Notes under the pieces: generated by a model
Told to the model about the DNA's origin: nothing
The model's input: the letters and a program-made list of their open reading frames with translations, nothing else
Database searches by the model: none
In this document: piece after piece, positions 966-62,699 of the stretch
Layout: every line of letters starts with the position of its first letter
Position numbering within the stretch: position 1 is the stretch's first letter
Program-made: the position numbers and the translations under genes
Source: Thermanaeromonas toyohensis ToBE
GTDB lineage: Bacteria > Bacillota > DSM-521 > Neomoorellales > Neomoorellaceae
Assembly: GCF_900176005.1 (NCBI RefSeq)
Contig: NZ_LT838272.1
Location: 2,871,587 to 2,935,586 of the forward strand
DNA: 64,000 bases
Direction: 5' to 3'

Positions 966-1799
966 CTATCCCTTAATGGCTCCTGCGGTAAGCCCAGAGA
1001 TAATCCTTTGTTGGAAAACCAATACCATTATAATCAATGGGACAGTGACTATGACGGAAGCCGCCGCCATATCCCCCCAAGGGAGATCAAACTGGCCCGG
1101 GAACATGGCGATGGCTACGGTGACAGTGCGCATGCTCACTTTGCTGTTAAAGACTAAAGCAAATAGAAATTCATTCCAGGCTGCGATAAAGGTGAGGATG
1201 GCAGTAGTAAATACACCTGGGGCGGCCAAGGGGAAAATGATCCGGGCTAGCGTCACTAAAGGTGTAGCTCCATCTACCCTGGCCGACTCTTCTAGTTCTA
1301 AGGGTATGCTCTTAAAGAAGGTGGTCAAGTTCCACAGGGCCAAGGGCAAATTAAAGGCTGTATAGGGGATTATAAGGGCCCAGTAAGTGTTAAGGAGATG
1401 CATCTTCATCATAAAGAGGTAGAGAGGCCCTATCACTGCTATACCAGGGAACATAGAGACGGCCAAAAACAGGGAAAGGATGAGTTTTTTCCCCTTCATC
1501 TTTAGCCTACTTAAGGCATAAGCCGCAAAGGAAGAAAGTAGGATACATAATATGGTAGCACTTCCAGCCACAATAAAGCTATTCTTTACAGGAACTAAAA
1601 AAGAGCGCTTGACCAGTACGGAATAATAGTACTCCATATATAGGTGGCTGGGAATCCACTTAGGCGGTATGCTCCATAATTCAGCTGGCGACTTAAAAGA
1701 GGTCAATACCTGCCATATGAAGGGGAACAAGATGACTGTGACTGCTGCTATCACTCCTAAATAAAACAGGCCGTTATATACTCTCTTCTTAAACCCCAA
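966..1799 (-). CDS. CUT1 sugar ABC transporter permease (MalG/AraQ type)
   Basis: Inner-membrane permease of 277 residues, one half of the channel of a carbohydrate ABC importer. It has about six membrane segments (first at roughly 12-32) and the cytoplasmic EAA loop at about 170-190 (EESARVDGA followed by FPLAAP), which docks the ATPase. WNEF near 208-211 is typical of MalG-type subunits. The start is a TTG behind GAGG. It follows the MalF-type gene by 17 bases and precedes the GH31 gene. No ATP-binding gene is present in this operon, so the importer probably uses a shared MsmK/MalK-type ATPase encoded elsewhere. Substrate is probably an alpha-glucoside, judged only from neighbouring enzymes. 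Confidence 0.93.
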   Translation of the reverse strand: MGFKKRVYNGLFYLGVIAAVTVILFPFIWQVLTSFKSPAELWSIPPKWIPSHLYMEYYYSVLVKRSFLVPVKNSFIVAGSATILCILLSSFAAYALSRLKMKGKKLILSLFLAVSMFPGIAVIGPLYLFMMKMHLLNTYWALIIPYTAFNLPLALWNLTTFFKSIPLELEESARVDGATPLVTLARIIFPLAAPGVFTTAILTFIAAWNEFLFALVFNSKVSMRTVTVAIAMFPGQFDLPWGDMAAASVIVTVPLIIMVLVFQQRIISGLTAGAIKG

Positions 1800-24022: not shown

Positions 24023-24064
24023 AAAATATAAAAGGCCCATACCGCATCCTTGCGGTGTGAGCCT
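24023..24064 (-). terminator. Expression-platform terminator of the glycine riboswitch
   Basis: On the minus strand ACCGC and GCGGT form an inner stem and AGGC with GCCT an outer one, followed by TTTTATATTTT. It sits between the second aptamer and gcvT, as expected for a glycine-ON switch in which ligand binding prevents termination. Confidence 0.65.
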
Positions 24065-24262
24065 CTGTCCCCTTACCTGAGAGATTAGGCCGCATGGCCT
24101 TACCCCTTTGGTGTCCCCCTGCTATTGTCAAGGAGAACTCTCCAGAGTGGCGTCCGGGAGTAGTACTTTTGCCTGAGAGTTTCCCCCGGCTGCCACCACC
24201 AGCCGGGCTTGCTCCTTCGGCGCCCCCTTTTACCGGGAGTCTCTTCTACTCCTTTCCTCCGC
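24061..24262 (-). promoter_or_regulatory. Tandem glycine riboswitch
   Basis: The gcvT leader has two aptamer-like units in series. The first runs from AGGAAAGGAG through GAGACTCCC, GGCGCCGAAGGAGCAAG and ACTCTCAGGCAAAAG. The second contains GGAGAGTTCT, ACACCAAAGGGGTAAGG and TCTCTCAGGTAAGGGGACAGAGG. CTCTCAGG ending each unit is the hallmark of the glycine riboswitch. Glycine binding is expected to switch on the cleavage operon. Exact ends are approximate. Confidence 0.92.
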
Positions 24263-26516: not shown

Positions 26517-27851
26517 CTATTCCAACCCTGCTCGCCGCTTTACACGGCGCAGAGCCTGGTTACATTTCTGACGTAGTTCCTCGGTATCTATAGTAAGAAG
26601 CTGCCTGTTGGCTACTACCACCTGGCCATCCACTATAGTCCAGGTAACATCGCTCCCCCGGGTTGCGTATACCAGTTTACCATAAATATCTACATTGTCT
26701 TCTGGCAATTGATGGAATTCGCGGAGATCTACTACAATTACATCCGCTTTTTTGCCTACTTCCAGGCTACCGATCTCTTGCTCTAAACCTAAAGCCCGGG
26801 CCCCTCCTAAAGTAGCCATCTCTACCACTTTTTGGGCGGGGATAGACGTAGGACCATGCAAGGGTTTCTGGATGAGAGCTGCCAAATGCATCTCTTTAAA
26901 CATATCCAAATTGTTATTACAAGGGGCTCCATCTGCCCCTAAAGTCACATTTACACCCTGCTCTAGGAGTTCAGGAATAGGAGCAATACCTGAGCCAAGC
27001 TTTAAATTGCAGGAGGGACAATGGGCTACCTGGGTTCCTGTCTGCGCAAGGACCCTTTTTTCCTCTTCATCTAGCCAAATACAATGGGCGAGCACCACAT
27101 AGGGCCCAGTAAGGCCCAGCTCATGTAAATAGATCACGTTACGCCGGCCTGTAAGTTCTTCTACCAGACGTACTTCATCCCTATTTTCGGAAGCATGGGT
27201 GTGTATAAGTACCCCATACTTCCTGGCCACCTCGCCCACCTCCTGCAATAGCCTAGGGCTACAGGAAAGAACAAAACGCGGAGCAAAGGCATAGCGGATC
27301 CGCCCTCCTGCTGCCCCATGCCACTTACCATATAGCTCTAAGCTTTCCGCCAGGGAAGTATCCGTATCCTCCTGTAAAGAACTAGGCACCCCCTCTCCAG
27401 CGTCCATCATAGCTTTGCCACTAGTAGCTCGTATACCGATCTTTTCTATGGCTTTAAAAGCCGCCTCTGTATAATGTACAGTTTCCATATCCAAAATGGT
27501 GGTAGTACCGCTAAGGAGCATTTCAGCACAACCTAAAAGAGCAGAAGTATAGAGGGACTCCTCATCATGGGCTCCTTCCAGGGGCCAAATACGTTTTTTA
27601 AGCCAATCCAAAAGAGCTAAATCATCGGCCTGCCCCCGGAAAAGGGTTTGGCAGAGATGGACATGGGTTTGTACTAGACCAGGAAGAACAGCTTGCCCCG
27701 AAGCATCGATCACCAGATCTGCCTCTTGTGGCGTCTGACCAATGGCAGCGATACGGTCTTCAGCAATATATAAATCTCCCGTAAATACCCGGCGTTCCCG
27801 ATCCAAGGTGACCAGAATACCGTTTTTGATTAAGATCTTCATTATTATCAT
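26517..27851 (-). CDS. Aminohydrolase (MTA/SAH/adenosine-type or guanine deaminase family)
   Basis: Metal-dependent amidohydrolase of 444 residues. The metal site is visible as THVHL (His63, His65), HTHASEN, LAHCIWL and GADGAPCNN. FRGQADDLALLDWL is typical of the MtaD/TrzA/AtzB group that deaminates purine or pyrimidine-like rings. Candidates are methylthioadenosine/SAH deaminase, 5'-deoxyadenosine deaminase or guanine deaminase. It lies 107 bases downstream of the split hydroxylase genes without a clear terminator between, so it is probably in the purine-riboswitch operon. It could feed xanthine or hypoxanthine to that enzyme, or work with the Asn-type MtnP. ATG start; a second ATG three codons on is possible. 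Confidence 0.85.
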   Translation of the reverse strand: MIIMKILIKNGILVTLDRERRVFTGDLYIAEDRIAAIGQTPQEADLVIDASGQAVLPGLVQTHVHLCQTLFRGQADDLALLDWLKKRIWPLEGAHDEESLYTSALLGCAEMLLSGTTTILDMETVHYTEAAFKAIEKIGIRATSGKAMMDAGEGVPSSLQEDTDTSLAESLELYGKWHGAAGGRIRYAFAPRFVLSCSPRLLQEVGEVARKYGVLIHTHASENRDEVRLVEELTGRRNVIYLHELGLTGPYVVLAHCIWLDEEEKRVLAQTGTQVAHCPSCNLKLGSGIAPIPELLEQGVNVTLGADGAPCNNNLDMFKEMHLAALIQKPLHGPTSIPAQKVVEMATLGGARALGLEQEIGSLEVGKKADVIVVDLREFHQLPEDNVDIYGKLVYATRGSDVTWTIVDGQVVVANRQLLTIDTEELRQKCNQALRRVKRRAGLE

Positions 27852-27958: not shown

Positions 27959-28963
27959 CTACTGGCTTCCACCTTTCTCTTTAGCCTTAAGTGCCCTAAG
28001 TACCCGTTCTGGCGTAGCAGGAAATTCTGTCAGGCGTACTCCTATGGCGTTGTATATAGCGTTCAAAATGGCTGGGGCAGTGGGAAGAGTAGCCGGTTCA
28101 CCTACTCCTTTGGCTCCATAGGGTCCGGTGGGTTCGGGATCTTCTATAATGATCGGTTCTATTTCCGGTATATCCAGGCTGGTAGGAATTAAATACGTAC
28201 TAAAGGAGGGATTAAGGATATTGCCCTGTTGTAAAATTACCTCCTCCATCAAGGCTAAACCTACCCCCATGGCCACACCTCCACATATCTGCCCTATAAC
28301 CCCAGCCTTATTTATAGCTCGCCCCACATCATGGGCTGCGATAACCTTTAAAACCTTCACTTCCCCGGTTTCCGTATCCACTTCTACTTCTGCAATCTGG
28401 ACTCCAAAGGCATAGGGCCAATAAGGTGCTCCTTGCCCGTTTTCATCTAGCTTAGTGGTATGGGCTATAAAGGTACCTTCCCCTACAAGGCGCACACCTT
28501 GTAGCCTAGCCCGGGTGGCAGCTTCAGCAATGGACATCCGTTTTTGAGGGTACCCCAGAACAGTAATATACCCATCGCTTGCTTTAAGGCCCATGATGGT
28601 GTTTACTCCCAGCTCCCGGGCTACAAACTCCAAGAGCTTATCCGCCGCCTTACGGCTAGCCAGTTTCACCGCGTTGCCAGATACATAGGTTTGCCTAGTA
28701 GCGGCTGTCGTCCCCGCATCGGGCGTAGCATCTGTGTCCGCGGAGACTACCGTTACTTTTTCCACCGGAACCCCTATCTCTTGGGCCGCGATCTGGGCCA
28801 GTATAGTGTTAGAGCCCTGGCCACAATCAGCAGCCCCGGTACGTACTGTAACTGAACCATCATCATGGATCTCTACTAAAGCCGTAGATACGTCTGGAAA
28901 CCCGTTACCGTAGCCTATACCATAGAAGGTGCAAGCTATACCTATGCCTCTCTTTTTGGCCAT
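27959..28963 (-). CDS. Molybdenum hydroxylase (xanthine dehydrogenase-like) large subunit, C-terminal half
   Basis: Protein of 334 residues equal to the C-terminal half of a xanthine dehydrogenase molybdopterin subunit. It begins KKRGIGIACTFYGIGYGN, has the cofactor motif AADCGQGSNT and ends with the catalytic Glu in KGVGEPATLP. Family members are normally one chain of about 760 residues; here the other half is encoded just upstream. The ATG follows a strong site (a run of seven G then AGGG). The frame differs from the upstream gene, with stops between, so it is either a true two-gene subunit or a frameshift. Confidence 0.88.
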   Translation of the reverse strand: MAKKRGIGIACTFYGIGYGNGFPDVSTALVEIHDDGSVTVRTGAADCGQGSNTILAQIAAQEIGVPVEKVTVVSADTDATPDAGTTAATRQTYVSGNAVKLASRKAADKLLEFVARELGVNTIMGLKASDGYITVLGYPQKRMSIAEAATRARLQGVRLVGEGTFIAHTTKLDENGQGAPYWPYAFGVQIAEVEVDTETGEVKVLKVIAAHDVGRAINKAGVIGQICGGVAMGVGLALMEEVILQQGNILNPSFSTYLIPTSLDIPEIEPIIIEDPEPTGPYGAKGVGEPATLPTAPAILNAIYNAIGVRLTEFPATPERVLRALKAKEKGGSQ

Positions 28964-28978
28964 GTTCCCTCCCCCCTT

Positions 28979-30241
28979 TCATTTCAATCTTTCTACTTCC
29001 CAACCGGCAGCACGGGCAGCAGCTAAAAGGCAAGCTTCCAGCCCCACACTGCTCTCCAGCACTTGGCCAGTAGCCGTCACACTCCCCTGGCGTAAAATGT
29101 TACGCCAACGGATGGTAAAAGGATGAAGCCCCAGTTCAGCAGCCAATAGATCCATCTGGCCCTCATAAGCTAGAGGAGGCTGGGTAGCTCCAAAACCCCG
29201 CATAGCACCGGTAAAGGGATTATTGGTATATACTGCATAGGCATCAATTTTGACATGGGGAACATAATAAGGCCCAGTAGCATGCACAGCCGCCTTGCGC
29301 AATACATTAGGTGACCAGGAAGCATAAGCCCCGCTATCTCCGATGATCTCTGCTTCCACGAAGGTCAAACGTCCGTCCCGGTCCGCGCCCGTGGTATATC
29401 TCATTATCATAGGATGACGTTTGCTATGGGAGTAGAAGGATTCTTCGCGGGTATTGACCATCTTAACCGGGCGACCGGTATGCAAAGCTAACAAGGCAGC
29501 CAATATCTGCAAGGTCATATCCTCCCGAGCACCAAAAGCGCCGCCTACCGCCGTAGTAATCACCCGCACACGCGTCTCAGCTACTCCTAGCGCACGAGCT
29601 ACTTCCACTCGGTCCCAATGGGGATACTGGGTAGCCACATGGATTTCAATATGCCCTCTCTCATCTACCCTGGCCACTACCGCCTCAGGTTGTAAAAAAG
29701 CATGCTCCATCATAGCCGTGCGGTAGGTTCTGGTAACTATTGCGGCCGCCGCTTTCCGGCCTATCTCTATACTTCCGCGCCTTATCTTGATATGATAAAG
29801 GATATTCCCGTCTTCATGTACCAGAGGGGCCCCCGGCTTCATGGCCTCCAAAGGATCGAAAACAGCTGGTAAGGGTTCATATTCGATGTCAATGGCTTCT
29901 GCCGCCTCTTCTGCTGCCTCCTCGCTTTCAGCTGCTACTACGGCCACTACATCGTTAACCGAGCGGACGCGGTCAGCTACCAGTACAGGCATATGGGGTA
30001 TAAGGACGCCGTGCCCATTATGCCCTGGGACATCCTCCGCCGTTAAAACAGCCACCACCCCTGGAATTTTGCGGGCTCTCTCCACTTCCACCTTCTTTAA
30101 CCGTGCGGAAGCTATCGGTATACGGCGGGCTTTCCCGTATAACATCCCAGGGAATGTAATATCGGCAGGATACATAGCGCGTCCCGTAACCTTAGCTGGT
30201 CCCTCGATGCGGCCCACAGGTTGCCCGATTAAGCTTTCCAA
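28979..30241 (-). CDS. Molybdenum hydroxylase (xanthine dehydrogenase-like) large subunit, N-terminal half
   Basis: Protein of 420 residues equal to the N-terminal half of a xanthine dehydrogenase molybdopterin subunit. It carries GPAKVTGRAMYPADI at the start, GGAFGAREDM and GAMRGFGATQPPLAYE, which bind the cofactor from this side. It ends at TGA after GWEVERLK, and the next gene resumes the family sequence about five residues later, so almost nothing is lost. TTG start with GGAGGTG seven bases upstream. The purine riboswitch lies directly before it. The FAD and Fe-S subunits are not adjacent; the nearest unpaired ones are at 56.1 and 58.4 kb. Confidence 0.88.
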   Translation of the reverse strand: MESLIGQPVGRIEGPAKVTGRAMYPADITFPGMLYGKARRIPIASARLKKVEVERARKIPGVVAVLTAEDVPGHNGHGVLIPHMPVLVADRVRSVNDVVAVVAAESEEAAEEAAEAIDIEYEPLPAVFDPLEAMKPGAPLVHEDGNILYHIKIRRGSIEIGRKAAAAIVTRTYRTAMMEHAFLQPEAVVARVDERGHIEIHVATQYPHWDRVEVARALGVAETRVRVITTAVGGAFGAREDMTLQILAALLALHTGRPVKMVNTREESFYSHSKRHPMIMRYTTGADRDGRLTFVEAEIIGDSGAYASWSPNVLRKAAVHATGPYYVPHVKIDAYAVYTNNPFTGAMRGFGATQPPLAYEGQMDLLAAELGLHPFTIRWRNILRQGSVTATGQVLESSVGLEACLLAAARAAGWEVERLK

Positions 30242-30257
30242 CCGAGCTCACCTCCAT

Positions 30258-30364
30258 AAAAATAGGTGACCGGAACCTTAGGGAAAAGGATTTTCCCCTT
30301 CGTAGTCAGGTGATTCCGGTCACCTGGTAGAGACCCCCAGCCCTATTGCTGGGGTTATACGAAG
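30258..30364 (-). promoter_or_regulatory. Purine riboswitch (guanine type) before the split xanthine dehydrogenase genes
   Basis: Aptamer at 30298-30364: P1 CTTCGT/ACGAAG, J1/2 ATAA, P2 loop with GGG, J2/3 GTCTCTACC, P3 loop CCGGAA, and J3/1 GACTACG. The C in GACTA (position 74 of the B. subtilis xpt aptamer) marks guanine/hypoxanthine class. Downstream, TTCCGGTCACCT (30264-30275) is perfectly complementary to the P3 arm plus loop (30314-30325) and is followed by ATTTTT. Six bases of it (TCACCT) can also pair with the ribosome site AGGTGA. A ligand-ON terminator is favoured, but translational control is possible. Confidence 0.9.
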
Positions 30365-48381: not shown

Positions 48382-49317
48382 TTACCTTTCTTCGCGGTCA
48401 TATGGAATAGCTAAAGCTCCCGGAGCTCCCACGTGTTTTACTATGGTCTGACGGGTGGCCACGATTAGGACCAGCACAGTAAGGATATACGGCAGCATCT
48501 TTAAGAAGAAAGAAGGAATAGAAATTTTGGTAGCCGCTTGCAAAGTATAAACTAAGGAATCTACTCCTCCGAAGAGATAAGAGCCCAGCAAAGCTCTTAC
48601 CGGATCCCATACAGCAAAGATAACCAAGGCTACGGCGATCCATCCACGACCGGCAGTCATGTTTTCCAACCAAGTAGGGGCATAAGCCAGGGAAAGGAAA
48701 GCTCCACCGGCCCCAGCCAGCATCCCGCCAAGCACAACATAAATATACCGGAGGGCAAACACATTTACTCCTAAAGCGTCGGCTGCCGCCGGGTTTTCTC
48801 CCACTGCCCGTAAATTAAGTCCCGGCCGGGTGTGATAAAGGTAATACCAAAGAAGGGGAACAAGAAAATAAGTTAGGTAAACGAGGGGATTGTGTTGAAA
48901 GAAAACCGGACCGATAACAGGTACCTGGGATAAGCCCGGAACAGCCACAGCTTTGAAAGTGGTGGGCAAGGGTTGCCCGATATAGGGCTTACCCAAAAAG
49001 CCGCTCAACCCTGTACCGAAGAGGGTTAGAGCCAAACCGGTTACCACCTGATTGGCCCGCAGAGTTATGGTTAAGAAAGCAAAGATCGAGGCTAAAGCGC
49101 CAGCAGCCACCATGGCTGCTAGAAACCCTAACCACGGGTTGGCGGTCCTAGCCGTAACTATGAACCCCGTGACCGCCCCCACCAGCATCATTCCTTCTAC
49201 CCCTAAGTTTAACACCCCGGCCCGCTCAGCCAGTATCTCCCCTAAGGCGGCGTAAAGGATAGGGGTACCGGCAGTAATGGCCGCGGCCAGGGCAGCTATC
49301 CAGACGGAAACCTCCAT
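48382..49317 (-). CDS. nupQ: Nucleoside ABC transporter permease (NupQ/YufQ type)
   Basis: Permease of 311 residues of the BMP-linked branch of the branched-chain type ABC importers. About eight to nine hydrophobic segments; AGTPILYAALGEILAERAGVLNLGVEGMM at the N-terminus is characteristic, along with the LRAVGENPAAADALGVNV loop. It forms the channel with NupP. ATG four bases after the nupP stop; last gene of the operon, followed by a terminator. Together with the purine riboswitch upstream of bmpA this supports nucleoside or purine uptake. Confidence 0.93.
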   Translation of the reverse strand: MEVSVWIAALAAAITAGTPILYAALGEILAERAGVLNLGVEGMMLVGAVTGFIVTARTANPWLGFLAAMVAAGALASIFAFLTITLRANQVVTGLALTLFGTGLSGFLGKPYIGQPLPTTFKAVAVPGLSQVPVIGPVFFQHNPLVYLTYFLVPLLWYYLYHTRPGLNLRAVGENPAAADALGVNVFALRYIYVVLGGMLAGAGGAFLSLAYAPTWLENMTAGRGWIAVALVIFAVWDPVRALLGSYLFGGVDSLVYTLQAATKISIPSFFLKMLPYILTVLVLIVATRQTIVKHVGAPGALAIPYDREER

Positions 49318-49320
49318 GGT

Positions 49321-50391
49321 TTATGGGGTAACCTCCTTCCTTTTCCACCGTAAGCGGTAGCGGGTTAATATCTCCCCTCCCAAGACAAAGAAGAGTATAG
49401 CACCCTGCAGCATGGATACTGTAGCCGCAGGTACCCCCATCTTTTGAACACTATAACCTCCTACAATTAGGCCTCCAAAAAGGAAGGAGACCAAAATAAT
49501 AGTAACGGGATGAAGCTTGGCTAGCCAGGCGATAATAATAGCGGTATAGCCATATCCAGGGGAAATACCATGCTGGAGACGATGGGTTATCCCGGCTACC
49601 TCGCTCATACCAGCTAGTCCTGCCAGGGCCCCACTTAAAAACATGACCAGTAAAATATTGCGTTCGATTTTGATACCGGCATATCTAGCCGCCCGGGGGC
49701 TTTCCCCAGTAATCCTTATCTCATAGCCCCACCGGGTCCGCCACAGAATAATGGTCAAGATAATGGCAGCTATGAGGGCAAAAACTAATCCCAAATGTAC
49801 CCGTGTTCCCACTAAAGTAGGGAGGGTAGCCGATTTGCTAAAAGGTGCTGTAAGGGGAAAGTTAAAGCCTTGGGGATCTTTCCAGGGACCGTAAACTAAG
49901 TAGTCCACCCAAAGGATGGCTACATAATTGAGCATTAAGGTGGTTATGACTTCGTTCACACCCCATTTGGCCCTAGGTATAGCAGGAAGCAAGGCCCATA
50001 ACCCGCCCAGGAGACAGCCCATCACAAACATAGCTGGTAGCATAATATAGGGGGGCAGATAAGGAAAGCTCAAAGCTATCCAACTTGCGCCCAAGGCTCC
50101 CATATAAAACTGGCCTTCAGCTCCGATGTTCCAGAGGAGCATGCGGAAGGCCACCGAGACTCCTAAACTCGTTAACATAAGGGGGATAGCTTTGACGACG
50201 GTTTCCGAAACCCCGTACTTAGAACCTATTACTCCTTTTAACATCTCCCCGTAAACCTTTAGGGGGTCAAAACCCGTCATAAAGAGGAAGAAAGCTCCCA
50301 GGACCAAGGCTAAAATTATAGAAGATACAGGTATTAGGACTGTCATCCAGGGTGAAGGGGAAAGCCTCTTTTCCCACACGATCCTGGTCAT
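49321..50391 (-). CDS. nupP: Nucleoside ABC transporter permease (NupP/YufP type)
   Basis: Permease of 356 residues with about eight to ten hydrophobic segments. Typical are the N-terminal GFDPLKVYGEMLKGVIGS, NIGAEGQFYMGALGASW and ITGESPRAARYAGIK. It overlaps nupO by four bases (ATGA), so synthesis is coupled. Pairs with NupQ to form the channel. Confidence 0.93.
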   Translation of the reverse strand: MTRIVWEKRLSPSPWMTVLIPVSSIILALVLGAFFLFMTGFDPLKVYGEMLKGVIGSKYGVSETVVKAIPLMLTSLGVSVAFRMLLWNIGAEGQFYMGALGASWIALSFPYLPPYIMLPAMFVMGCLLGGLWALLPAIPRAKWGVNEVITTLMLNYVAILWVDYLVYGPWKDPQGFNFPLTAPFSKSATLPTLVGTRVHLGLVFALIAAIILTIILWRTRWGYEIRITGESPRAARYAGIKIERNILLVMFLSGALAGLAGMSEVAGITHRLQHGISPGYGYTAIIIAWLAKLHPVTIILVSFLFGGLIVGGYSVQKMGVPAATVSMLQGAILFFVLGGEILTRYRLRWKRKEVTP

Positions 50392-51902
50392 GCGCTGACC
50401 TCCATTCTTTTAGCTCCTGCCATCATTAGTCCTAGCTCTTCTACATCCGCCTGGTCAGTAGGAACTATACCCATGATCTCTCCTTCATAAAGGACAGCTA
50501 TACGATCGGCTAGGCGGAAGAGTTCTTCCAAATCTTCCGAAATAAGGAGAATAGCTGTCCCCGCCGCCTTTTGTTCTAAAAGGAGCCGGTGTACTGTCTC
50601 CGTGGCTCCTACATCTAATCCTCGCGCCGGGTATACAGCTACCAGTACACGGGGGCGGCTAGATATCTCCCTAGCCAAAAGTAAGCGCTGAAGGTTGCCA
50701 CCCGACATCATTTTCACTGGAGCTTCTAAGCTAGCTAGCTTAACTTGGAAGCGTTCTATCAGTTCTTGAGCCCACTGCCGGGCTGCCCGCCGGTTAAGGA
50801 GGACTTTTCCCCACCGGGGATGGCGGTACTCCTTTAAAAGCAGGTTATCTACGGCCCCCAAGTTAGGTACTAAACCCATACCCAAGCGGTCTTCAGGGAT
50901 GAAGCTCACTCCCGCAGCGATAACCCGGCAAGGGTCGCAGTGTATAATCTCCTTCCCCTCTACAAGAATAGATCCCTTTAAGGCCGGTCTTAAACCTGCG
51001 ATAACCTCGGCCAGCTCCCGCTGTCCGTTTCCGGCTACCCCGGCAATACCTAATATCTCGCCAGCGGCCACCGAAAGGTTTATACCCTTAAGGGCCAGCA
51101 ACCCCTTATCATTCAGGGCTTGAAGGTTCCTTATCTCTAGCATAACCCGGCCTTGGGGAGGCCTTTTTTTATCCCCTGTCCAAAAGATCTCCCGCCCCAC
51201 CATAAGCCGGGCTAGCTCTCTCTCGTTGGTCTCCTCTTTTTTGACCGTAGCTACTCTCCTACCATGGCGTAAAATAGTAATGGTATCGGCTGCCTCCATA
51301 ACCTCCTGTAGCTTGTGGGTGATAAAAATAACGGCACAGCCCTCAGAGGCCATTTTCCGTAAAGTCCGATAAAGCTCTCGGGCTTCTTGCGGAGTTAAAA
51401 CAGCCGTAGGCTCATCCAGAATAAGCACCCGGGCGCGCCGGTAAAGGAGCTTTACTATTTCCACGCGCTGTTGTTCACCTACGGATAGCTGCCAGATGCG
51501 GGCGAAGGGATCTACCTTCAGCCCATACTTTTCGGAAAGCTCGGCTATTTCTTGCGCCAGTTGGTTGAGATTAAGTTTGATACCACCTTTTAACCCTAAG
51601 GCCACATTTTCCGTTACTGTAAAGGGTGCCACCAAGCGAAAGTGTTGGTGGACCATACCTATGCCCGCCGCTATAGCATCCCGCGGTGAACGAAAATAGA
51701 CCCTTTTCCCTTGAACATAAATTTCCCCGCTATCAGGGCGGTATAGGCCGGTGAGGATGCTCATCAGGGTGCTCTTCCCTGCCCCGTTTTCCCCTAAAAG
51801 GGCATGGACCTCCCCAGCCCGAACGGCTAAATCTACCCTATCATTGGCCACTACCCCAGGAAAAACCTTGGTGATATTACGCATTTCAACCAAAGGCGTC
51901 AC
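50388..51902 (-). CDS. nupO: Nucleoside ABC transporter ATP-binding protein (NupO/YufO type)
   Basis: Tandem ATPase of 504 residues. First half: Walker A GENGAGKST, IGMVHQHFRLV (family-specific) and LDEPTAVLTP; second half: GVAGNGQRE and MMSGGNLQRLLLAREI. It energizes NupP/NupQ. GTG start behind GGGAGGC. It is 211 bases after bmpA; the gap holds a long hairpin. Confidence 0.94.
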   Translation of the reverse strand: MTPLVEMRNITKVFPGVVANDRVDLAVRAGEVHALLGENGAGKSTLMSILTGLYRPDSGEIYVQGKRVYFRSPRDAIAAGIGMVHQHFRLVAPFTVTENVALGLKGGIKLNLNQLAQEIAELSEKYGLKVDPFARIWQLSVGEQQRVEIVKLLYRRARVLILDEPTAVLTPQEARELYRTLRKMASEGCAVIFITHKLQEVMEAADTITILRHGRRVATVKKEETNERELARLMVGREIFWTGDKKRPPQGRVMLEIRNLQALNDKGLLALKGINLSVAAGEILGIAGVAGNGQRELAEVIAGLRPALKGSILVEGKEIIHCDPCRVIAAGVSFIPEDRLGMGLVPNLGAVDNLLLKEYRHPRWGKVLLNRRAARQWAQELIERFQVKLASLEAPVKMMSGGNLQRLLLAREISSRPRVLVAVYPARGLDVGATETVHRLLLEQKAAGTAILLISEDLEELFRLADRIAVLYEGEIMGIVPTDQADVEELGLMMAGAKRMEVSA

Positions 51903-52054
51903 TAGCTTTCGCCTCCCAGCCGTAAGCCTAGGTAAACCTTTTCGCTAATTTAAGGGTAAATTCCTTCCGGAGGGATAAATTAATTTATAGCTAAATCTAC
52001 TAAATAAGACTTAACATTGAGCAAATATTTTCCACATAATTAAATTAGAGGGCT

Positions 52055-52097
52055 ATTTTTAAGGGCCGCAAGGTCCATTCCCGCGGCCCTTAAAAAT
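52055..52097 (-). other. 15-bp perfect hairpin between bmpA and nupO
   Basis: 52055-52069 and 52083-52097 are perfectly complementary over 15 bases with a 13-base loop; the core is AGGGCCGC/GCGGCCCT flanked by a T-run on one side and an A-run on the other. No U-tract follows on either strand, so it is more likely a 3'-end protecting or partial-termination element. Confidence 0.75.
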
Positions 52098-52113
52098 CCT
52101 ACACAGCTTAAGT

Positions 52114-53241
52114 TTAACGCGGGATTTCTCCTTCTACTCCTTCTACAAACCAATTTACCCCTAGAACTTCTTCATGGCTCATCCTCTGGCCCTCAGGCAC
52201 CCTGACCTTGCCACTTTGATCTTTAATAGGACCCTGGAAGACGTAGAACTGCCCATTTATGATCTCTTGCTTTTTCTTCGCTACCAGATCCCGCACCTCT
52301 TGCGGAACTATTTCATTAATGGGAGCAAGATCCACAATACCATCTTTCATGGTACCATAATATTGCTCAGACTTCCAGGTACCATTCTTGACAGCCTCTA
52401 CCGTCTTAACATAGAAGGGTCCCCAGTTCCATACAGGAGAAGTCAAGTTAGCTTTGGGAGCAAACTGGCGCATGTCAGAATTGTACCCGATACCATAGGC
52501 ACCCCTTTCCTGAGCTGCTTGCTGGGGCCCTGGAGTATCCTGGTGTTGGGCAATAACGTCAGCGCCGGCATCTAAGAGGCTTAAGGCAGCCTGCTTTTCC
52601 GCTGCCGGGTCGTACCAGGTATTTGTCCATACCACCTTTACCTTAACTTTAGGATTTACTGAACGGGCTCCTAAAGTAAAGGCATTGATCCCGCGGATAA
52701 CCTCTGGGATGGGATGGGCTGCCACATACCCTAGGATATTGGACTTGGTCATCTTACCTGCCACTATACCTGAAAGGTACCGTGGCTCTTCCATGGCACC
52801 AAAATAGGTACCTACATTGGGCGCCGTCTTGTAACCAGAGCAGTGCTCAAAGACAACCTGGGGATATTTTTCCGCTACCTTAATGACATAATCCATGTAG
52901 CCGAAACTTGTGGCAAAGATAACTTTATTTCCCTGTTCAGCTAGCTCGGTCAGGACCCGCTCTACATCCGCTCCCTCAGGGACGCTCTCCAGGTAAGAAG
53001 TGGTTACCCAAGGTAATTTTTGTTCTAAATATTTTCTTCCCTGATCGTGGGCCCAGGTCCATCCGGCATCACCTACAGGTCCCACATAGATAAAGGCTAC
53101 TTTCATTTTCTCTTCCTTAGCCTGACCACCTTGTGGGCTTCCTCCCTGAGGGGCAGACTGTTTCCCCCCACATCCTGCTAATAATAAAACTGTAAGGAGC
53201 AAAGCAAAACCCACTAACCCTAGCCGCTTGATCTTTACCAT
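52114..53241 (-). CDS. bmpA: BMP-family nucleoside-binding lipoprotein
   Basis: Basic membrane protein family lipoprotein of 375 residues, the binding component of a nucleoside ABC importer. Lipobox LLAGC (Cys24), then VAFIYVGPVGDAGWTWAHDQGRKYLE, SYLESVPEGADVERVL, FATSFGYMD and AHPIPEVIRGINAF, all typical of BmpA/PnrA proteins. ATG at 53241 has GGAGG just upstream; an in-frame GTG four codons earlier overlaps that site. It is controlled by a guanine-type riboswitch and preceded by a SigH-like promoter. Confidence 0.95.
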   Translation of the reverse strand: MVKIKRLGLVGFALLLTVLLLAGCGGKQSAPQGGSPQGGQAKEEKMKVAFIYVGPVGDAGWTWAHDQGRKYLEQKLPWVTTSYLESVPEGADVERVLTELAEQGNKVIFATSFGYMDYVIKVAEKYPQVVFEHCSGYKTAPNVGTYFGAMEEPRYLSGIVAGKMTKSNILGYVAAHPIPEVIRGINAFTLGARSVNPKVKVKVVWTNTWYDPAAEKQAALSLLDAGADVIAQHQDTPGPQQAAQERGAYGIGYNSDMRQFAPKANLTSPVWNWGPFYVKTVEAVKNGTWKSEQYYGTMKDGIVDLAPINEIVPQEVRDLVAKKKQEIINGQFYVFQGPIKDQSGKVRVPEGQRMSHEEVLGVNWFVEGVEGEIPR

Positions 53242-53369
53242 TTTAACCTCCACCTACTTTCCTTCGAGGTTTTAAGTTTTAAATTTTAAAGTAATCTTTT
53301 GAGGGGTTTATCTTTGAGCTCTAAAGCTCTTCTTCTTTACCTTTCCCCTCACCCCCTTTTTAACCCATT

Positions 53370-53480
53370 AAAAAACCAGGTCAACCGCTTCAACCCCACG
53401 AAGAACCAAGCTTCGTAGTCAGGTGATTTGCGGTCACCTGGTAGAGACCCCCGGACCGATTACCGGGGTTATACGAAGCT
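53370..53480 (-). promoter_or_regulatory. Purine riboswitch (guanine type) before bmpA
   Basis: Aptamer at 53409-53480: P1 AGCTTCGT/ACGAAGCT, J2/3 GTCTCTACC, P3 loop CCGCAAA, J3/1 GACTACG with the guanine-type C. The P3 arm ACCAGGTGACCGC (53430-53442) can pair with downstream GCGGTTGACCTGGT (53375-53388), which runs straight into a six-base U-tract. Forming the aptamer would break this terminator, so ligand should switch transcription on. A competing classical OFF arrangement through ACGAAG/CTTCGT exists but gives a weaker terminator. Confidence 0.92.
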
Positions 53481-53574
53481 CTTATAAAACTCTTAATAAA
53501 TATAGGTTTTACTACTATGCAAATACGTAAAGGCCACTTTGATTATTCATATAGGGTTCCTACTATAAAATATA

Positions 53575-56106: not shown

Positions 56107-56964
56107 CTATAAAGCTTGGATTGCGGTCTCCAGGGCCCGCCGGACCAACACCCTTACCATTTCTTTCCTATACGCCCGCGAACCACGAAGTAAGCTGTCC
56201 CGGGGCTGGGCAAGTTCGGCCGCTATCTTGGCCGCCTCTTGTATTTTTTCCTGGCTAACCTTGGCTCCTATCAGAGCTTCTGCTGCCTCCTGGCAAAGGA
56301 AGGGCTGTGGAGCTACCGGCGCTACACAGATACGCGCCCTTTCCCAGCGGCCATCTTTAATTTGGACCCGCACAGCAACATTAAGAATGGGTAAGGATAA
56401 AGCCCGGCGAGGTGAAAGTCGGACAAAGGCCGAAGCTTCTCCTTCTCCCCATTTGGGTACTAAAAATCTCCCCAGGAGTTCCCGAGTACTGTCCACTTTA
56501 GAGCGCCCTACTCCTTCATATAAATCTTCTACGGCTACCCTCCTCTTCCCCTGCGATCCCCATATTTCCGCTTCCGCTCCCAAGGCTACCAAGGCCACTG
56601 CCGTATCGGCCGCCGGCTGCGCATTAACTACATTCCCAGCCAGGGTACCTACATTACGGATCTGGGGCGAGCCTACAGAAGAAGCCGCCTGGGCTAAAGC
56701 AGGAAGCTTTTCCCTGATAAGCGGAGATGTAGCAGCCTCTCTATGGGTTACCCCGGCACCTAGACTTATAGTATCCTCTTTCTCCTGGATGAGGTTTAAC
56801 TCCGGGATGCGGGTTATGTCCACGAGTACCCGGGGTTGCAAGCGCTTCTTCTTTATATCTATGATCAGATCCGTACCGCCCGCTATGATTCTGGCCCCTT
56901 CATAGGTGTTGAGCATCTCCAGGCATTCGGATACAGAATGGGGAAAAAGGTAAGCAGAAACCAT
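56107..56964 (-). CDS. Molybdenum hydroxylase FAD-binding subunit (CoxM/XdhB-like)
   Basis: FAD subunit of 285 residues of the xanthine dehydrogenase family. FAD motifs are IIAGGTDLI (about 26-34) and NVGTLAGNVVNA (about 103-114). It passes electrons from the Fe-S subunit to an acceptor. It is third in a group Fe-S subunit, ssnA, FAD subunit. No molybdopterin subunit is in this group; the split one at 28-30 kb is the best candidate partner. ATG behind GAGGAGG. Confidence 0.92.
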   Translation of the reverse strand: MVSAYLFPHSVSECLEMLNTYEGARIIAGGTDLIIDIKKKRLQPRVLVDITRIPELNLIQEKEDTISLGAGVTHREAATSPLIREKLPALAQAASSVGSPQIRNVGTLAGNVVNAQPAADTAVALVALGAEAEIWGSQGKRRVAVEDLYEGVGRSKVDSTRELLGRFLVPKWGEGEASAFVRLSPRRALSLPILNVAVRVQIKDGRWERARICVAPVAPQPFLCQEAAEALIGAKVSQEKIQEAAKIAAELAQPRDSLLRGSRAYRKEMVRVLVRRALETAIQAL

Positions 56965-57048
56965 ACTAAATAAAATCCTCCTCCCGACCTAGCTTAAATA
57001 GAAAACATGCTTATTTTTACTTAAAGGTCAGGGCGGTAGCTGAAAGCT

Positions 57049-58374
57049 CTAAAACCTTTCCCAGACTTTTTGGGCTAGCTTACGGGCCCGGGCTGCAATG
57101 GCAGCTTCATCTAAATGGAGAAGCTCTCTGTTGTGCATAAGGATCTTCCCACCAATGATGGTGGTATTCACTCGACCTCCATGAAAGCCGAAAAGTAAGT
57201 GGCCGTACCAGTTTTCACCTGTAAAGGGCGTGGGAGGTTCGTAATCCACTAAAATTATATCTGCATATGCGCCGGGAATTAGGCGCCCTAATGGACGAGG
57301 GTAGAAGGCTTGCAGGATACGGGTATTATTGGTGAAGGCCATAGTAGGAATCTCCTGCCATCCAGCGCTGGGATCACCGCTTACAAATTTACGCAGGACA
57401 TTAGCTACTTTCAAGGATTCAAACATATCGCATGTATACCCGTCAGTACCCAAACCTACTATCACACCGGCAGCTAACATCTCTCCTACGGGAGCGCATC
57501 CCACAGCGTTACCCATATTAGATTCCGGATTATGCACCACCATGGTTCCCGTATCTCGCAGGATACCTATTTCCCTTTCGGTAACGTGGACGCAATGGGC
57601 GGCGATGGTACGAGGTCCCAAAATCCCTTTATCAGCTAGCCTTTCCACCACCCGCTTACCAGAACGTTCCAGAGCATCCTCTACGTCCTGGATGCCTTCC
57701 GCCACGTGAATATGGAAACCACAGCCCAGCTCCTCTGCCGCCTCCCGGCAAAGAGCCAATGTCTCATCGGACAAGGTAAAAGAAGCATGTAGACCAAAGG
57801 TAGCGGAAAGCAAGCCCTCCCGGTTGCGATACTTCTTAATGGCTTCCACGTTTTCTTCTATGCCTTTCCGCGCTATCTCCGGGCCATCCCGGTCGGAGAC
57901 TTCATAAGCCAGGCAAGTACGTACCCCGACCTCCTCTACTGCCCTAGCTATAGCCTCCAGACTCCCTCGTACAGCCCGGGGGCTCGCATGGTGATCCAGT
58001 ATGGTAGTGGTACCGCATTTAATGCACTCTATAAGGGGTAAGAGGGCGCTATAATAAACATCTTCCAAGGTCAGAGCTTTATCCAGCCGCCACCACAGCC
58101 GCTCCAGTATCTCCAAAAAATTGGTGGGAGGCGGATCTTTCAAGGCCATCCCCCGGGCAAAGGTGCTATAAAGGTGCATATGGGTGTTGGTCATACCCGG
58201 CATTATGATTCTGCCACCGGCATCTAGGAATTCTGCCTCTGGATAAGTTTCCTGTAGCTTGCGGGTAGGACCAATAGCTACGATTTGGTCCCCTTCTATA
58301 ACTACGCCCCCTTCCTCTTGATAGGGAGCCTCCGGATCCAAAGTCAAAAGGCGACCATTGCCTATGATAAGCAT
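57049..58374 (-). CDS. ssnA: Putative aminohydrolase SsnA
   Basis: Amidohydrolase of 441 residues. Metal ligands: TNTHMHLYS, FHIHVAEG, AAHCVHVT and GTDGYTCDM. LERLWWRLDKALTLEDVYYSALL and TTILDHHASP match my knowledge of the SsnA group, which is linked to selenium-dependent molybdenum hydroxylases and purine breakdown. The physiological substrate is not established to my knowledge; ring deamination or opening of a purine-derived compound is likely. It starts two bases after the Fe-S subunit stop and is followed by the FAD subunit gene. Confidence 0.9.
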   Translation of the reverse strand: MLIIGNGRLLTLDPEAPYQEEGGVVIEGDQIVAIGPTRKLQETYPEAEFLDAGGRIIMPGMTNTHMHLYSTFARGMALKDPPPTNFLEILERLWWRLDKALTLEDVYYSALLPLIECIKCGTTTILDHHASPRAVRGSLEAIARAVEEVGVRTCLAYEVSDRDGPEIARKGIEENVEAIKKYRNREGLLSATFGLHASFTLSDETLALCREAAEELGCGFHIHVAEGIQDVEDALERSGKRVVERLADKGILGPRTIAAHCVHVTEREIGILRDTGTMVVHNPESNMGNAVGCAPVGEMLAAGVIVGLGTDGYTCDMFESLKVANVLRKFVSGDPSAGWQEIPTMAFTNNTRILQAFYPRPLGRLIPGAYADIILVDYEPPTPFTGENWYGHLLFGFHGGRVNTTIIGGKILMHNRELLHLDEAAIAARARKLAQKVWERF

Positions 58375-58376
58375 GT

Positions 58377-58850
58377 TTACTCTCCCCTCGCTATAACTTC
58401 CGCCGCTTTCTGTACAGCGCGCACTATTTGGCTATAGCCGGTACAGCGGCAGAGGTTGCCGGAAATAGCTTCTTTAATTTCTTCTTTAGTGGGACAGGGG
58501 TTGCTATCCAAGAGGGACTTGGCGCTCAAAATCATCCCCGGTGTACAGAAACCACACTGCACAGCACCTTCAGAAATAAAGGCCTCTTGCAAGGGATGTA
58601 GCTTTTGGCCTTGGGCCAGGCCTTCAATGGTAGTAACCTCCCGGCCTTCAGCTTTAGCTGCTGGAAGGAGGCAAGAAACCACCGCCACTCCGTCTAAAAG
58701 CACAGTACAAGCTCCACATTCCCCTTCCCCACACCCCTCCTTGGTACCTGTTAATCCTAAATAATCCCGCAGAAGCCGGAGCAGGGTAATTCCAGCCGGT
58801 GCCTCTACTTGGACTTCCTTTCCATTCACTTTAAGCCTAAACTGCCGCAC
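58377..58850 (-). CDS. Molybdenum hydroxylase [2Fe-2S] subunit (CoxS/XdhC-like), first copy
   Basis: Two-cluster iron-sulfur subunit of 157 residues. The plant-type cluster cysteines lie in GCGEGECGACTVLLDG, the second cluster in QCGFCTPGM and LCRCTGY. GTG at 58850 is chosen for its AAGGAGG site; the frame open to 58904 adds 18 residues that lack family features. First gene of the group with ssnA and the FAD subunit. About 28 kb from the split molybdopterin subunit that lacks its own Fe-S gene. Confidence 0.93.
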   Translation of the reverse strand: MRQFRLKVNGKEVQVEAPAGITLLRLLRDYLGLTGTKEGCGEGECGACTVLLDGVAVVSCLLPAAKAEGREVTTIEGLAQGQKLHPLQEAFISEGAVQCGFCTPGMILSAKSLLDSNPCPTKEEIKEAISGNLCRCTGYSQIVRAVQKAAEVIARGE

Positions 58851-58975
58851 GAGCCCTTCCCTCCTTTCTTCCCGAAAACCAACTCTAAAACAACTTGAAC
58901 TCACCTTAATTTCCTAAAGTATAGCCAGTTTCAGTCCCAAGACTGCTCGTGGCTTTAGCTTGCCCTCAAAATTTA

Positions 58976-59001
58976 ATTCTTTTTAAGTCCGGGCCTTTCC
59001 T
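58976..59001 (-). promoter_or_regulatory. SigH-like promoter for the Fe-S/ssnA/FAD group
   Basis: Minus strand AGGAAAG, 15 bases, GAAT in AAGAATTAAATTTTG. AGGA to GAAT is 22. It is less conserved around the core than the xanthine dehydrogenase promoters. It lies 125 bases before the GTG start. Confidence 0.4.
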
Positions 59002-59046
59002 TTCAAGCCTAACTAGCCTTTCGGCAGCTTAGCAGTAACTTAAGAC

Positions 59047-59508
59047 TTAGTCAGCCAGCGCTTTTTCTACAGCTTTAATAATGTTCTGGTAACCTGTACA
59101 GCGGCAAAGATGGCCAGATAACTCCCTTTTAATTTCTTCCCTTGTATACTTCTTACCGCTTTCTACCAGGGCCGTAGCTGTAAGTATATAACCGGGTGTA
59201 CAAAAACCACACTGGATGGCTCCCTCTTCTATAAAGGCTTTTTGTACCTTGGAAAGCTCACCATTCTTAGCTATACCTTCTATGGTTACTATATTTTTAC
59301 CTTGAGCCCAGACAGCCAAGTAAATACAAGAGTCAATGGGGATGCCATCGATGAGAACGGTACAAGCCCCGCATTCTCCCACTCCACACCCTTTTTTAAC
59401 GCCTGTATATCCCAAACGGTTTCGCAAAACTTCAAGGAGCGATTCGCGAACGTCAACTTCTAAGGTTTCCTGTTTTCCGTTTACTACAAAGGAAATTTTT
59501 TTAAGCAA
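59047..59508 (-). CDS. Molybdenum hydroxylase [2Fe-2S] subunit, second copy
   Basis: Iron-sulfur subunit of 153 residues, related to the copy at 58.4 kb. Cysteine motifs GCGVGECGACTVLIDG, QCGFCTPGY and LCRCTGYQNI are complete. It overlaps the FAD subunit gene by eight bases, so it belongs to a full three-subunit operon. The start appears to be TTG, with GAGGAG very close; no better start is visible. Confidence 0.92.
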   Translation of the reverse strand: MLKKISFVVNGKQETLEVDVRESLLEVLRNRLGYTGVKKGCGVGECGACTVLIDGIPIDSCIYLAVWAQGKNIVTIEGIAKNGELSKVQKAFIEEGAIQCGFCTPGYILTATALVESGKKYTREEIKRELSGHLCRCTGYQNIIKAVEKALAD

Positions 59509-60385
59509 TCTCCTCGCCCCCTGCCTTTATAATGGCCACTTTTAAGGCCCTCTGGGTAAGCTCCTCCACCAAGTGCTCCCTGTATTCTTTGGAAGCCCTC
59601 CAGGAAGTTCTTGCTTTCGTCGATTTAACTGCTAGTTTTCCAATTTCTGCTATGGTCTGGGCGGAAATGCTCTTGCCTTTGGCATAGGCTTCTGCTTCCA
59701 GACATCTCAAAGGAGTTGGACCCGCCACTCCCAGCCCGATCCTGACATCTTCAAAAATACGACCTTCCTTTATTTTGCAAAGCACAGCCACGCCCAAAAT
59801 AGCTATATCCATGGCTTTACGGGCAGAGAATTTAATATAGTGCCCCCCATAGCCCATATAATCCTCTGGGGAAATGATAATCTCAGTAAGGAGTTCCCCT
59901 GGTCTTAAATCAACTTTTCCGGGGCCCAGGTAAAACTCTTGAATGGGAATGATCCTCTCCCCTTGCTCGCTCTTTAATCTTAATTTAGCGTTTAGGGCGA
60001 ATAAGGAAGAAGCGCTGTCTGCCGAAGTGGCGCCGTTACAAATGTTGCCACCTATGGTAGCCACATTACGGATCTGCGGTCCACCCATAGATAAAGCGGC
60101 TTCCGTTAAGATAGGGATATTTTCTTTAATAACAGGATTATTGATAATCTGGGTGAAAGTGGTCAGTGGCCCGATGATAATTCTTCCGTCCTTAAGTTTC
60201 CGAATACCTTCCAAGGATTTTATTTTGCGGATGCTGAGTAACTCTGCTTTTTGTACCTCGCCATGATGTATTTTAATTAAAACATCGGTGCCGCCCGCAA
60301 TGACGATTAAATTAGGATTGGCCGCCAAGAGTTTTGTAGCCTCATCTATCGTTTCCGCCTCAAAATAAGCTTTTATATCATACAT
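59501..60385 (-). CDS. Molybdenum hydroxylase FAD-binding subunit, second copy
   Basis: FAD subunit of 294 residues. FAD motifs IVIAGGTDVLIK and NVATIGGNICNGATSADSA are visible, and RKAMDIAILGVAV is typical. ATG at 60385 is chosen because GAGGAGGGG is just upstream; the frame open to 60403 starts within that site. It is 22 bases after the molybdopterin subunit gene and overlaps the Fe-S gene. Confidence 0.93.
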   Translation of the reverse strand: MYDIKAYFEAETIDEATKLLAANPNLIVIAGGTDVLIKIHHGEVQKAELLSIRKIKSLEGIRKLKDGRIIIGPLTTFTQIINNPVIKENIPILTEAALSMGGPQIRNVATIGGNICNGATSADSASSLFALNAKLRLKSEQGERIIPIQEFYLGPGKVDLRPGELLTEIIISPEDYMGYGGHYIKFSARKAMDIAILGVAVLCKIKEGRIFEDVRIGLGVAGPTPLRCLEAEAYAKGKSISAQTIAEIGKLAVKSTKARTSWRASKEYREHLVEELTQRALKVAIIKAGGEEIA

Positions 60386-60407
60386 AAAGCCCCTCCTCAC
60401 CACCTTC

Positions 60408-62699
60408 TTATATTAACCCGGCTTCTTTAAACTTCTCAAAGACCCGCTGGGGGTAAAGGGGTAACCGGTTAAAGGCTACACCTGTGGCATCTAGAACGGC
60501 ATTCCGGATGGCAGGAGCTACAGGCAGGACAGGTGGCTCCCCTAATGACTTATTTCCAAAGGGACCCGTGGGCTCAAAGGTTTCCACAAAGGCTACCCCG
60601 ATTTCTGGGATATCCATTATAGAGGGGAGTTTATAATCTAGTAGGTTGTTGTTAAGGGGCTTCCCGGTCTTTTCATCAAACAACATCTGCTCTAAAAGGG
60701 CATAGCCTATCCCCATGCTCACGCCGCCGTGAACTTGTCCTTCGGCCAATTGGGGGTTGATAATTTTACCAGAATCGTGCACGTTATATATCTCCAGGAT
60801 CTCGATCTTCCCCGTCCTGATATCTACTTCTACCTCCACAAAGGTTGCACCAAAGGTATAAGCGTTCACCCTAGCATTATTGGAAACATCGCTGGTTATG
60901 GGTTGGGCAGAAACAAGATCATAGTAACTCCTTAAAGCTACTTCGGAGAGGGGCATAACCACATTTCCTGTATCTTTATAAACGATATTCTGGTCCTTAA
61001 TATCCAAAGCATGGGCAGGTATACCGGTCATAGAACATGCAAAGTCAAGGATCTTTTCCTTAACTTCTAAAGCTGCTTTCCTTACTGCCATACCTGTAAT
61101 ATAAGTTTGCCTAGAGGCATAAGCACCGGTATCAAAGGGTGTGATATCTGTATCCTGGGTAGAAATTACATGCACCATATCCACCGGGATACCTAATATC
61201 TCTGCGGCCATCTGAGCAAAGACAGTATCGCTCCCTTGGCCTATTTCGGCAGCACCGATCTGCAATTGGATGGAACCATCCTGGTTAAGGACGATTCTGG
61301 CTCCTGCTATTTCCTGGCCCGCCGGGTAGGTCCCGGAAGCGTAACTGAAACAGGCCATCCCTAACCCCCTGCGTCTATAACCTGTCTGATTTTTATACCG
61401 CTCTTTTTTCTCCTCCCACTTAATTAATTCCTTGCCTTTTTCAATGCACTCCCTTATCCCGCAACTCCTTACCACATTTCCATTTAAGGGATCTACATAG
61501 CCCACCTGGACCAAGTTTTTCTTACGGAATTCAATGGGATCCATATTTAGTTTTCTAGCAATATCTTCTAGATGGCATTCCACAGCAAAGGTTATCTGGG
61601 GAGAACCATAACCGCGCATGGCCCCGGCCACGGGCAGGTTAGTATACACAGTGTACGGCTCATATTTTAAGGCTTTCATGGGGTATAAGACCCTAAATTT
61701 AGAACCCCCGGCCATAAGAATAGAATGGCCATGGGAGGCATAGGCACCGGTGTTGGAGATGGCGATTATATGCATTCCAATCAATTTTCCGTCTTTGGAA
61801 ACACCGGTTTTAATTTTATATCTGATAGCATGCCGGGTCCGGGTATCGATCATACATTCTTCCCTGGATAGCTCAAGTTTTACCGGCCTTCCACCCACAG
61901 CCAAAGTCATAGCGGCAACTAAAGGCTCCAGGCAAACATCTTGTTTGCTCCCAAATCCGCCGCCCACATAAGGCTTAATTACCCGCACCCTTCCCCAGGG
62001 AATACCTAAAGCTTGGGCGACAATTCTCCTTACAATATGGGGGATCTGGGTGGAGGTTATAATTACAATACGGCCATCGCTATCTACATAAGCACAGGCT
62101 ACATGGTTTTCTAACTGGCAGTGCTGTACAATGCTTGTTTCATATTGGCCCTCAAAAATATAATCAGCTTCTTTAAAAGCTTCCTCAATATCCCCAATCT
62201 CATACCCCGTAGAGCTTACAATATTTCTTTCACAGTCTTCATGGATTTTAGGTGCGCCTTCCCTCATGGCCTCTTCAGGATCAAACACCGGTTCCAATAC
62301 TTCATACTCTACCTCAATCAATTTCAGGGCTTCCTCTGCTATTAATTCGTCAGTTGCCACTACTGCTGCAATAGCATCCCCCACAAAGCGTGCTTTGTTG
62401 GTTAAAATAGTCCGGTCTTCTTTATCCCTGTGCTTGGGGTCTAAGGCATAGGGATGGCCTGCAGTAGCAAATTTGTTCTGCGGGACATCTTTATAAGTTA
62501 AAACTGCTTCTACGCCGGGTAAGGCTTTGGCTTTGCTGACCTCGATGTTTTTAACAAGGGCATGGGCATAAGGGCTTCGTAGTATTTTCCCTACGAGCAT
62601 ATTTCTTTCTAAAAAGTCACTGGCATATTTCGCTTGACCGGTAACTTTGGCAATAGCATCCACCCTGGCAACGCTTTTCCCCACCACTGTAAAAGCCAT
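60408..62699 (-). CDS. Molybdenum hydroxylase (xanthine dehydrogenase-like) molybdopterin subunit, intact copy
   Basis: Catalytic subunit of 763 residues, the usual length. It has RVDAIAKVTGQAKYASD, the cofactor motifs GGGFGSKQDV, GAMRGYGSPQ and AEIGQGSDT, and the catalytic Glu in SLGEPPVLP. In the region that is split in the copy at 28-30 kb it reads straight through (KNQTGYRRRGLGMACFSY). Substrate may be xanthine, hypoxanthine or another N-heterocycle. It heads a three-gene operon with FAD and Fe-S subunits; ATG behind GGGAGAG. Confidence 0.94.
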   Translation of the reverse strand: MAFTVVGKSVARVDAIAKVTGQAKYASDFLERNMLVGKILRSPYAHALVKNIEVSKAKALPGVEAVLTYKDVPQNKFATAGHPYALDPKHRDKEDRTILTNKARFVGDAIAAVVATDELIAEEALKLIEVEYEVLEPVFDPEEAMREGAPKIHEDCERNIVSSTGYEIGDIEEAFKEADYIFEGQYETSIVQHCQLENHVACAYVDSDGRIVIITSTQIPHIVRRIVAQALGIPWGRVRVIKPYVGGGFGSKQDVCLEPLVAAMTLAVGGRPVKLELSREECMIDTRTRHAIRYKIKTGVSKDGKLIGMHIIAISNTGAYASHGHSILMAGGSKFRVLYPMKALKYEPYTVYTNLPVAGAMRGYGSPQITFAVECHLEDIARKLNMDPIEFRKKNLVQVGYVDPLNGNVVRSCGIRECIEKGKELIKWEEKKERYKNQTGYRRRGLGMACFSYASGTYPAGQEIAGARIVLNQDGSIQLQIGAAEIGQGSDTVFAQMAAEILGIPVDMVHVISTQDTDITPFDTGAYASRQTYITGMAVRKAALEVKEKILDFACSMTGIPAHALDIKDQNIVYKDTGNVVMPLSEVALRSYYDLVSAQPITSDVSNNARVNAYTFGATFVEVEVDIRTGKIEILEIYNVHDSGKIINPQLAEGQVHGGVSMGIGYALLEQMLFDEKTGKPLNNNLLDYKLPSIMDIPEIGVAFVETFEPTGPFGNKSLGEPPVLPVAPAIRNAVLDATGVAFNRLPLYPQRVFEKFKEAGLI

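Follow-up and report, generated by a model that had tools for sequence, protein, structure and literature searches.

Guanine-I riboswitches with a predicted ON design at xanthine dehydrogenase and purine import genes of Thermanaeromonas and Moorella

How might a riboswitch that usually shuts genes off come to stand before genes that degrade purines? Guanine-I riboswitches are the textbook OFF switches of purine synthesis and import, and they usually act through a stand-alone terminator and an antiterminator. In Thermanaeromonas toyohensis ToBE, by contrast, a canonical guanine-I aptamer precedes a catabolic operon of the xanthine dehydrogenase (XDH) family and appears to be mounted on an ON-type terminator like that of the Bacillus subtilis pbuE adenine riboswitch, so that purine would induce the XDH operon, with the same design used for import. 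We give this reading a probability of about 0.8. The analysis started from a window of 64,000 nucleotides of the Thermanaeromonas genome, to which the positions in Table 1 refer.

Table 1. Features of the two purine switches and their genes in the window
Feature	Position	Strand	Basis or remark
Guanine-class purine aptamer, P1 to P1	30297..30365	-	RF00167 81.3 bits; helices covary
Aptamer helices	P1 30365-30358/30304-30297; P2 30354-30348/30341-30335; P3 30326-30320/30313-30307	-	
Terminator 5' arm	30312..30325	-	overlaps P3 5' arm, L3 and start of P3 3' arm; exact 12-nt complement plus 2 pairs
Inner hairpin GAAGGGGA-AAA-UCCUUUUC	30283..30301	-	minimum-energy fold; competes with P1 3' strand
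Terminator 3' arm GGUUCCGGUCACCU	30264..30277	-	complementarity, comparison of switches, permutation test
Terminator AUUUUU tract (A, then UUUUU 30262-30258)	30258..30263	-	
Ribosome binding site GGAGGU	30250..30255	-	precedes UUG start at 30241
XDH-family Mo subunit, N-terminal part (hammerhead and MoCoBD_1 domains), UUG start	28979..30241	-	family searches
XDH-family Mo subunit, C-terminal part (MoCoBD_2 domain), separate gene	27959..28963	-	family searches
Amidohydrolase, best model 5'-deoxyadenosine deaminase	26517..27851	-	follows Mo subunit genes
Second purine aptamer, same ON design	53396..53496	-	RF00167 83.9 bits
Second switch, terminator 3' arm and U6	53370..53403	-	complementary to own P3 and P1 3' strands
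ABC importer, Bmp/PnrA type: substrate-binding protein, ATPase, two permeases	48382..53253	-	behind second switch

The RNA read from 30382 to 30283 on the minus strand matches Rfam RF00167 far above the gathering score (81.3 versus 37 bits, E 5e-13), and it has the same aptamer sequence, fold and pocket bases as guanine-I members such as B. subtilis xpt. Read directly, its junctions are UAA (J1/2), GUCUCUAC with U51 (J2/3) and AC (J3/1), with C74 at 30305; aligned to the family, it carries U22, U51 and C74 in the pocket and junctions free of insertions. When it was aligned with 24 other purine aptamers, P1, P2 and P3 covaried strongly, with 90% of cells paired and 20 of 22 pairs changed on both sides, a result equalled by no shuffle. 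Its J2/3 carries U48C, which we consider ordinary because the OFF-type members L088 and L118 have it too. Judged by its sequence, the RNA is a canonical guanine-I aptamer with guanine as the predicted ligand, and the core with its guanine-class C in J3/1 is as the sequence-only reading had described it.

What lies behind the aptamer departs from the usual arrangement. The P3 arm and loop, AGGUGACCGGAA (30325-30314), are the exact reverse complement of UUCCGGUCACCU (30275-30264), and this 12-nt stretch is the longest exact match of the 34 nt past the aptamer to the aptamer complement; 5000 shuffles gave at most 9. The pairing extends to 14 pairs with one G-U wobble, and the arm is followed directly on the RNA by AUUUUU, a short U tract of an A and five U. 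All three features had been proposed from the letters of this DNA and were found as described. The terminator is thus built of aptamer strands and is exclusive with the aptamer, as in a pbuE-like transcriptional ON switch. Ensemble energies per length were computed for equilibrium at 37 C, although the host is probably thermophilic, as are relatives such as Moorella thermoacetica. They favour the aptamer to about 30 nt past P1; the terminator state is then ahead, by 6.6 kcal/mol at the U tract, and it overtakes only once its arm is complete, in keeping with the earlier proposal that the folded, ligand-bound aptamer would prevent this terminator. In the second switch (53496-53396), which repeats this architecture outside the interval of the sequence-only reading, the state without the aptamer wins by 5.4 kcal/mol. 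Computed from dissociation constants, guanine at 1-100 uM would stabilise the aptamer by 3-6 kcal/mol, which makes control by ligand plausible, but kinetics would matter. The inner hairpin is retained with changed sequence in the sister copy (L033). In the minimum-energy fold of the full-length RNA, UAUGGAG is in addition paired with the P1 5' strand, which masks part of the ribosome site. A promoter scan upstream on the correct strand gave nothing convincing.

From these features we predict the ligand, the termination step and the direction of the switch in the cell. The terminator would form only by dismantling the aptamer. When purine is absent, pairing of GAAGGGGA with UCCUUUUC would compete with the P1 3' strand, UUCCGGUCACCU would next capture the 5' side of P3 together with its loop, and the resulting hairpin with U5 would finally stop transcription. 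An aptamer that has bound guanine, hypoxanthine or xanthine would resist and polymerase would enter the XDH operon, so purine should induce its own breakdown. The same design would serve purine import in the Moorella/Thermanaeromonas lineage.

To place this arrangement among its relatives, RF00167 was searched in 101 genomes and found in 51, and 110 switches were read, the three of Thermanaeromonas included. For each switch, pairing of the terminator 3' arm with its own aptamer was weighed against any stand-alone hairpin. ON or OFF was called at the first strong U tract, where the aptamer-arm duplex was set beside the strongest stand-alone hairpin; a looser rule, under which every hairpin extending into the aptamer counted, gave too many ON calls and was dropped. 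Gene classes came from clustering and from family searches on representatives. Counted in this way, with switches from related genomes not being independent observations, pairing between arm and aptamer is present in 28 of 29 XDH-linked switches (23/23 in the Moorella/Thermanaeromonas family and 5/6 outside it). The switches of Bmp/PnrA-type importers (11/11) and of NCS2 permeases (7/7) are also ON in the family, and in these as in the ON-design XDH switches there is little or no stand-alone hairpin. Outside the family the sign is mostly reversed, with OFF calls for 6 of 7 Bmp importers and 13 of 15 clearly called NCS2 permeases (family versus outside, Fisher p 0.0004 and 0.0002, respectively, related sequences being treated as independent). 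There, ON makes up 6 of the 7 clear calls at XDH/amidohydrolase switches and 10 of 46 at the remaining switches (p 0.002); L102, the switch of a deaminase-type amidohydrolase, is ON.

The arms are matched to their own aptamers beyond composition, because exchange weakens the pairing: the mean is -26.3 kcal/mol for own pairs versus -20.0 kcal/mol for exchanged pairs with different P3, and 0 of 10,000 permutations were as good. Within the Mo-subunit group, P3 reads AGGUGACC in Thermanaeromonas and AGGCAACC in Moorella, and the arm differs to match, with GGUCACCU in the former and GGUUGCCU in the latter. The ON geometry of the sequence-only reading has therefore stood up in its conservation, in the covariation of arms with aptamers and in a terminator that wins only with its arm complete. 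Moorella Fe-S-subunit leaders have weaker arms, of about -16 to -23 kcal/mol. The sole XDH-linked switch here without the ON design, L086 (1001-1420), lies before an XDH-type FAD-subunit gene; by eye its aptamer is followed by a ykkC-like sequence, for which Rfam gave no confirmation. Purine-synthesis switches are mostly OFF, and those of Moorella have a ykkC-type sequence after the aptamer, resembling the guanine-PRPP tandem described earlier, where termination is favoured by guanine (PMC5912903). Four ON calls at family purine-synthesis genes (L043, L047, L055 and L078) were treated as misclassified because they hang on a weak stretch of U that belongs to the neighbouring ykkC/PRPP-type aptamer and most orthologues were called OFF.

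Could purine instead repress these genes? The sequence-only reading had left room for translational control in which the ligand-bound aptamer frees UCACCU (30269-30264) to hide AGGUGA of the ribosome site, so that purine lowers XDH synthesis. The six bases can indeed pair in this way, and the complement is present in both the window and the sister L033, but the predicted probability that the ribosome site is free rises with the aptamer enforced (0.24 versus 0.01; in the sister 0.81 versus 0.13), and since this holds for both Thermanaeromonas copies, the hiding of the site is unsupported. The other XDH leaders have no consistent shift in ribosome-site freedom, and the terminator is conserved whereas the UCACCU complement is not, which together make this form of control very improbable. 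An ordinary transcriptional OFF switch of the xpt kind, in which bound ligand favours termination, would be expected from the class as a whole, as most characterised guanine-I switches are OFF (PMC5912903); we regard it as extremely improbable in this leader, where no stand-alone terminator was found between P1 and the start codon, the values at the U tract being 0 versus -29.9 kcal/mol for the aptamer-arm duplex.

The sign could also be ON with a different ligand, if the aptamer had drifted toward xanthine or a nucleoside, like the xanthine-II or 2'-dG classes. In favour of this is the predicted action of the gene on xanthine-type purines; against it, canonical guanine aptamers have some affinity for xanthine and hypoxanthine as they are, lower than for guanine. 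With U22, U51, C74 and the junction lengths all canonical and U48C shared with OFF-type switches, we think such drift very improbable, even though pocket variants that accompany such genes exist (PMC9295807). The xanthine-II class shares the three-stem junction, the association with xdh and a predicted ON sign, and is also found with allantoinase genes; it is defined by U51G and by insertions in J2-3 and J3-1, and occurs in Paenibacillus and relatives (PMC9295807), whereas the Thermanaeromonas RNA has U51 and canonical J2/3 and J3/1.

The preferred reading, a guanine-I aptamer on a pbuE-like terminator, is reminiscent of several known systems and identical to none. The pbuE adenine riboswitch has the same fold and is an ON switch, whose terminator draws on aptamer strands and is kept from forming by bound ligand; it differs in its adenine-specific U74 and in serving a purine efflux pump, unlike the C74 and XDH genes of Thermanaeromonas. 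Its ON activity is given in the title of Mandal and Breaker 2004, as cited in PMC2258182. Guanine-II also senses guanine and is predicted ON, but has junction insertions and accompanies phosphoribosyltransferase genes; in Paenibacillus, guanine-II is predicted ON and guanine-I OFF (PMC9295807). Xanthine-I (NMT1, PMC7373994) is likewise found with purine oxidation genes, but it has an unrelated fold, acts as a translational OFF switch and belongs to Proteobacteria. In the searchable literature, where ON control of xdh genes appears only for the rarer pocket variant xanthine-II (PMC9295807), no account of this arrangement turned up for guanine or purine riboswitches in connection with xanthine dehydrogenase, Moorella or purine degradation; this absence is weak evidence, because that literature includes few subscription papers. 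The aptamer itself belongs to a familiar class. The apparent novelty lies in its use, in which canonical guanine-I sensing would act with the opposite sign on genes of purine breakdown and import throughout a lineage.

Three RF00167 matches occur in the Thermanaeromonas genome, the third before an NCS2 permease. The purE leader (L252) has a ykkC/PRPP-like sequence, which scores 44.9 bits against RF00442 and stays below the gathering score, and no guanine aptamer was detected ahead of it, so the guanine switches found in the genome are all of the ON design. We consider it likely, from sequence comparison, that in the Moorellaceae the canonical guanine-I aptamer has become the ON signal of a regulon for taking up and degrading purines, made up of XDH operons, the PnrA-type importer and the NCS2 permease, with related importers under the opposite sign in different lineages. 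If so, this natural, conserved ON version would show that the expression platform decides between ON and OFF with the sensor unchanged; pairs with the same aptamer and importer family and opposite wiring would suit the study of sign change, and these acetogens are predicted to induce purine breakdown directly through RNA. Ahead of its PRPP-like sequence, at the place of the guanine aptamer in relatives, the purE leader L252 has an unrelated-looking element (1650-1740, minus strand; genome C1:3132687-3132779). The outer stem of this element is CUGUUA/UAACAG; the element shares 87% identity with the sister species, lacks a good Rfam match and is a candidate for a decayed guanine aptamer or an unknown one.

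The controlled genes fit a catabolic role: the hammerhead, MoCoBD_1 and MoCoBD_2 domains of a xanthine dehydrogenase Mo subunit, its substrate predicted, are all present over two genes, a YgeY-type hydrolase precedes them, and product and neighbours are of purine-catabolic types. Spacing and strand suggest that the amidohydrolase is probably part of the operon. The top curated models for the N-terminal part, pucD and selenium-dependent XDH, match only partially because the subunit is split. Its closest named relatives are in a Thermanaeromonas MAG (94% identity) and then in Moorella species (66-67%). When 80 named loci of XDH relatives were scanned, the aptamer was present in 6, four of them named Moorella/Thermanaeromonas and the rest Moorella-like or clostridial, so this XDH type mostly lacks the aptamer elsewhere.

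The split falls at the MoCoBD_1/MoCoBD_2 boundary in 13 family genomes (27959-30241, minus strand, in the window, and L033, L039, L042, L046, L049, L054, L059, L063, L066, L070, L077 and L081), and stop and start codons overlap in most Moorella copies; by comparison of these genes it is a conserved gene fission and not a frameshift. No Fe-S or FAD genes adjoin the split subunit. A second XDH set, 56107-62699 on the minus strand, is without an Rfam riboswitch and comprises XdhA (60408-62699), two Fe-S subunits, two FAD subunits and SsnA; the split subunit may use its Fe-S and FAD subunits. About 6 kb downstream of the first purine switch and close to the purine-catabolic genes, a tandem glycine riboswitch (24063-24258, minus strand) precedes gcvT, gcvH and gcvP; clostridia that ferment purines form glycine as an end product (PMC3519856).
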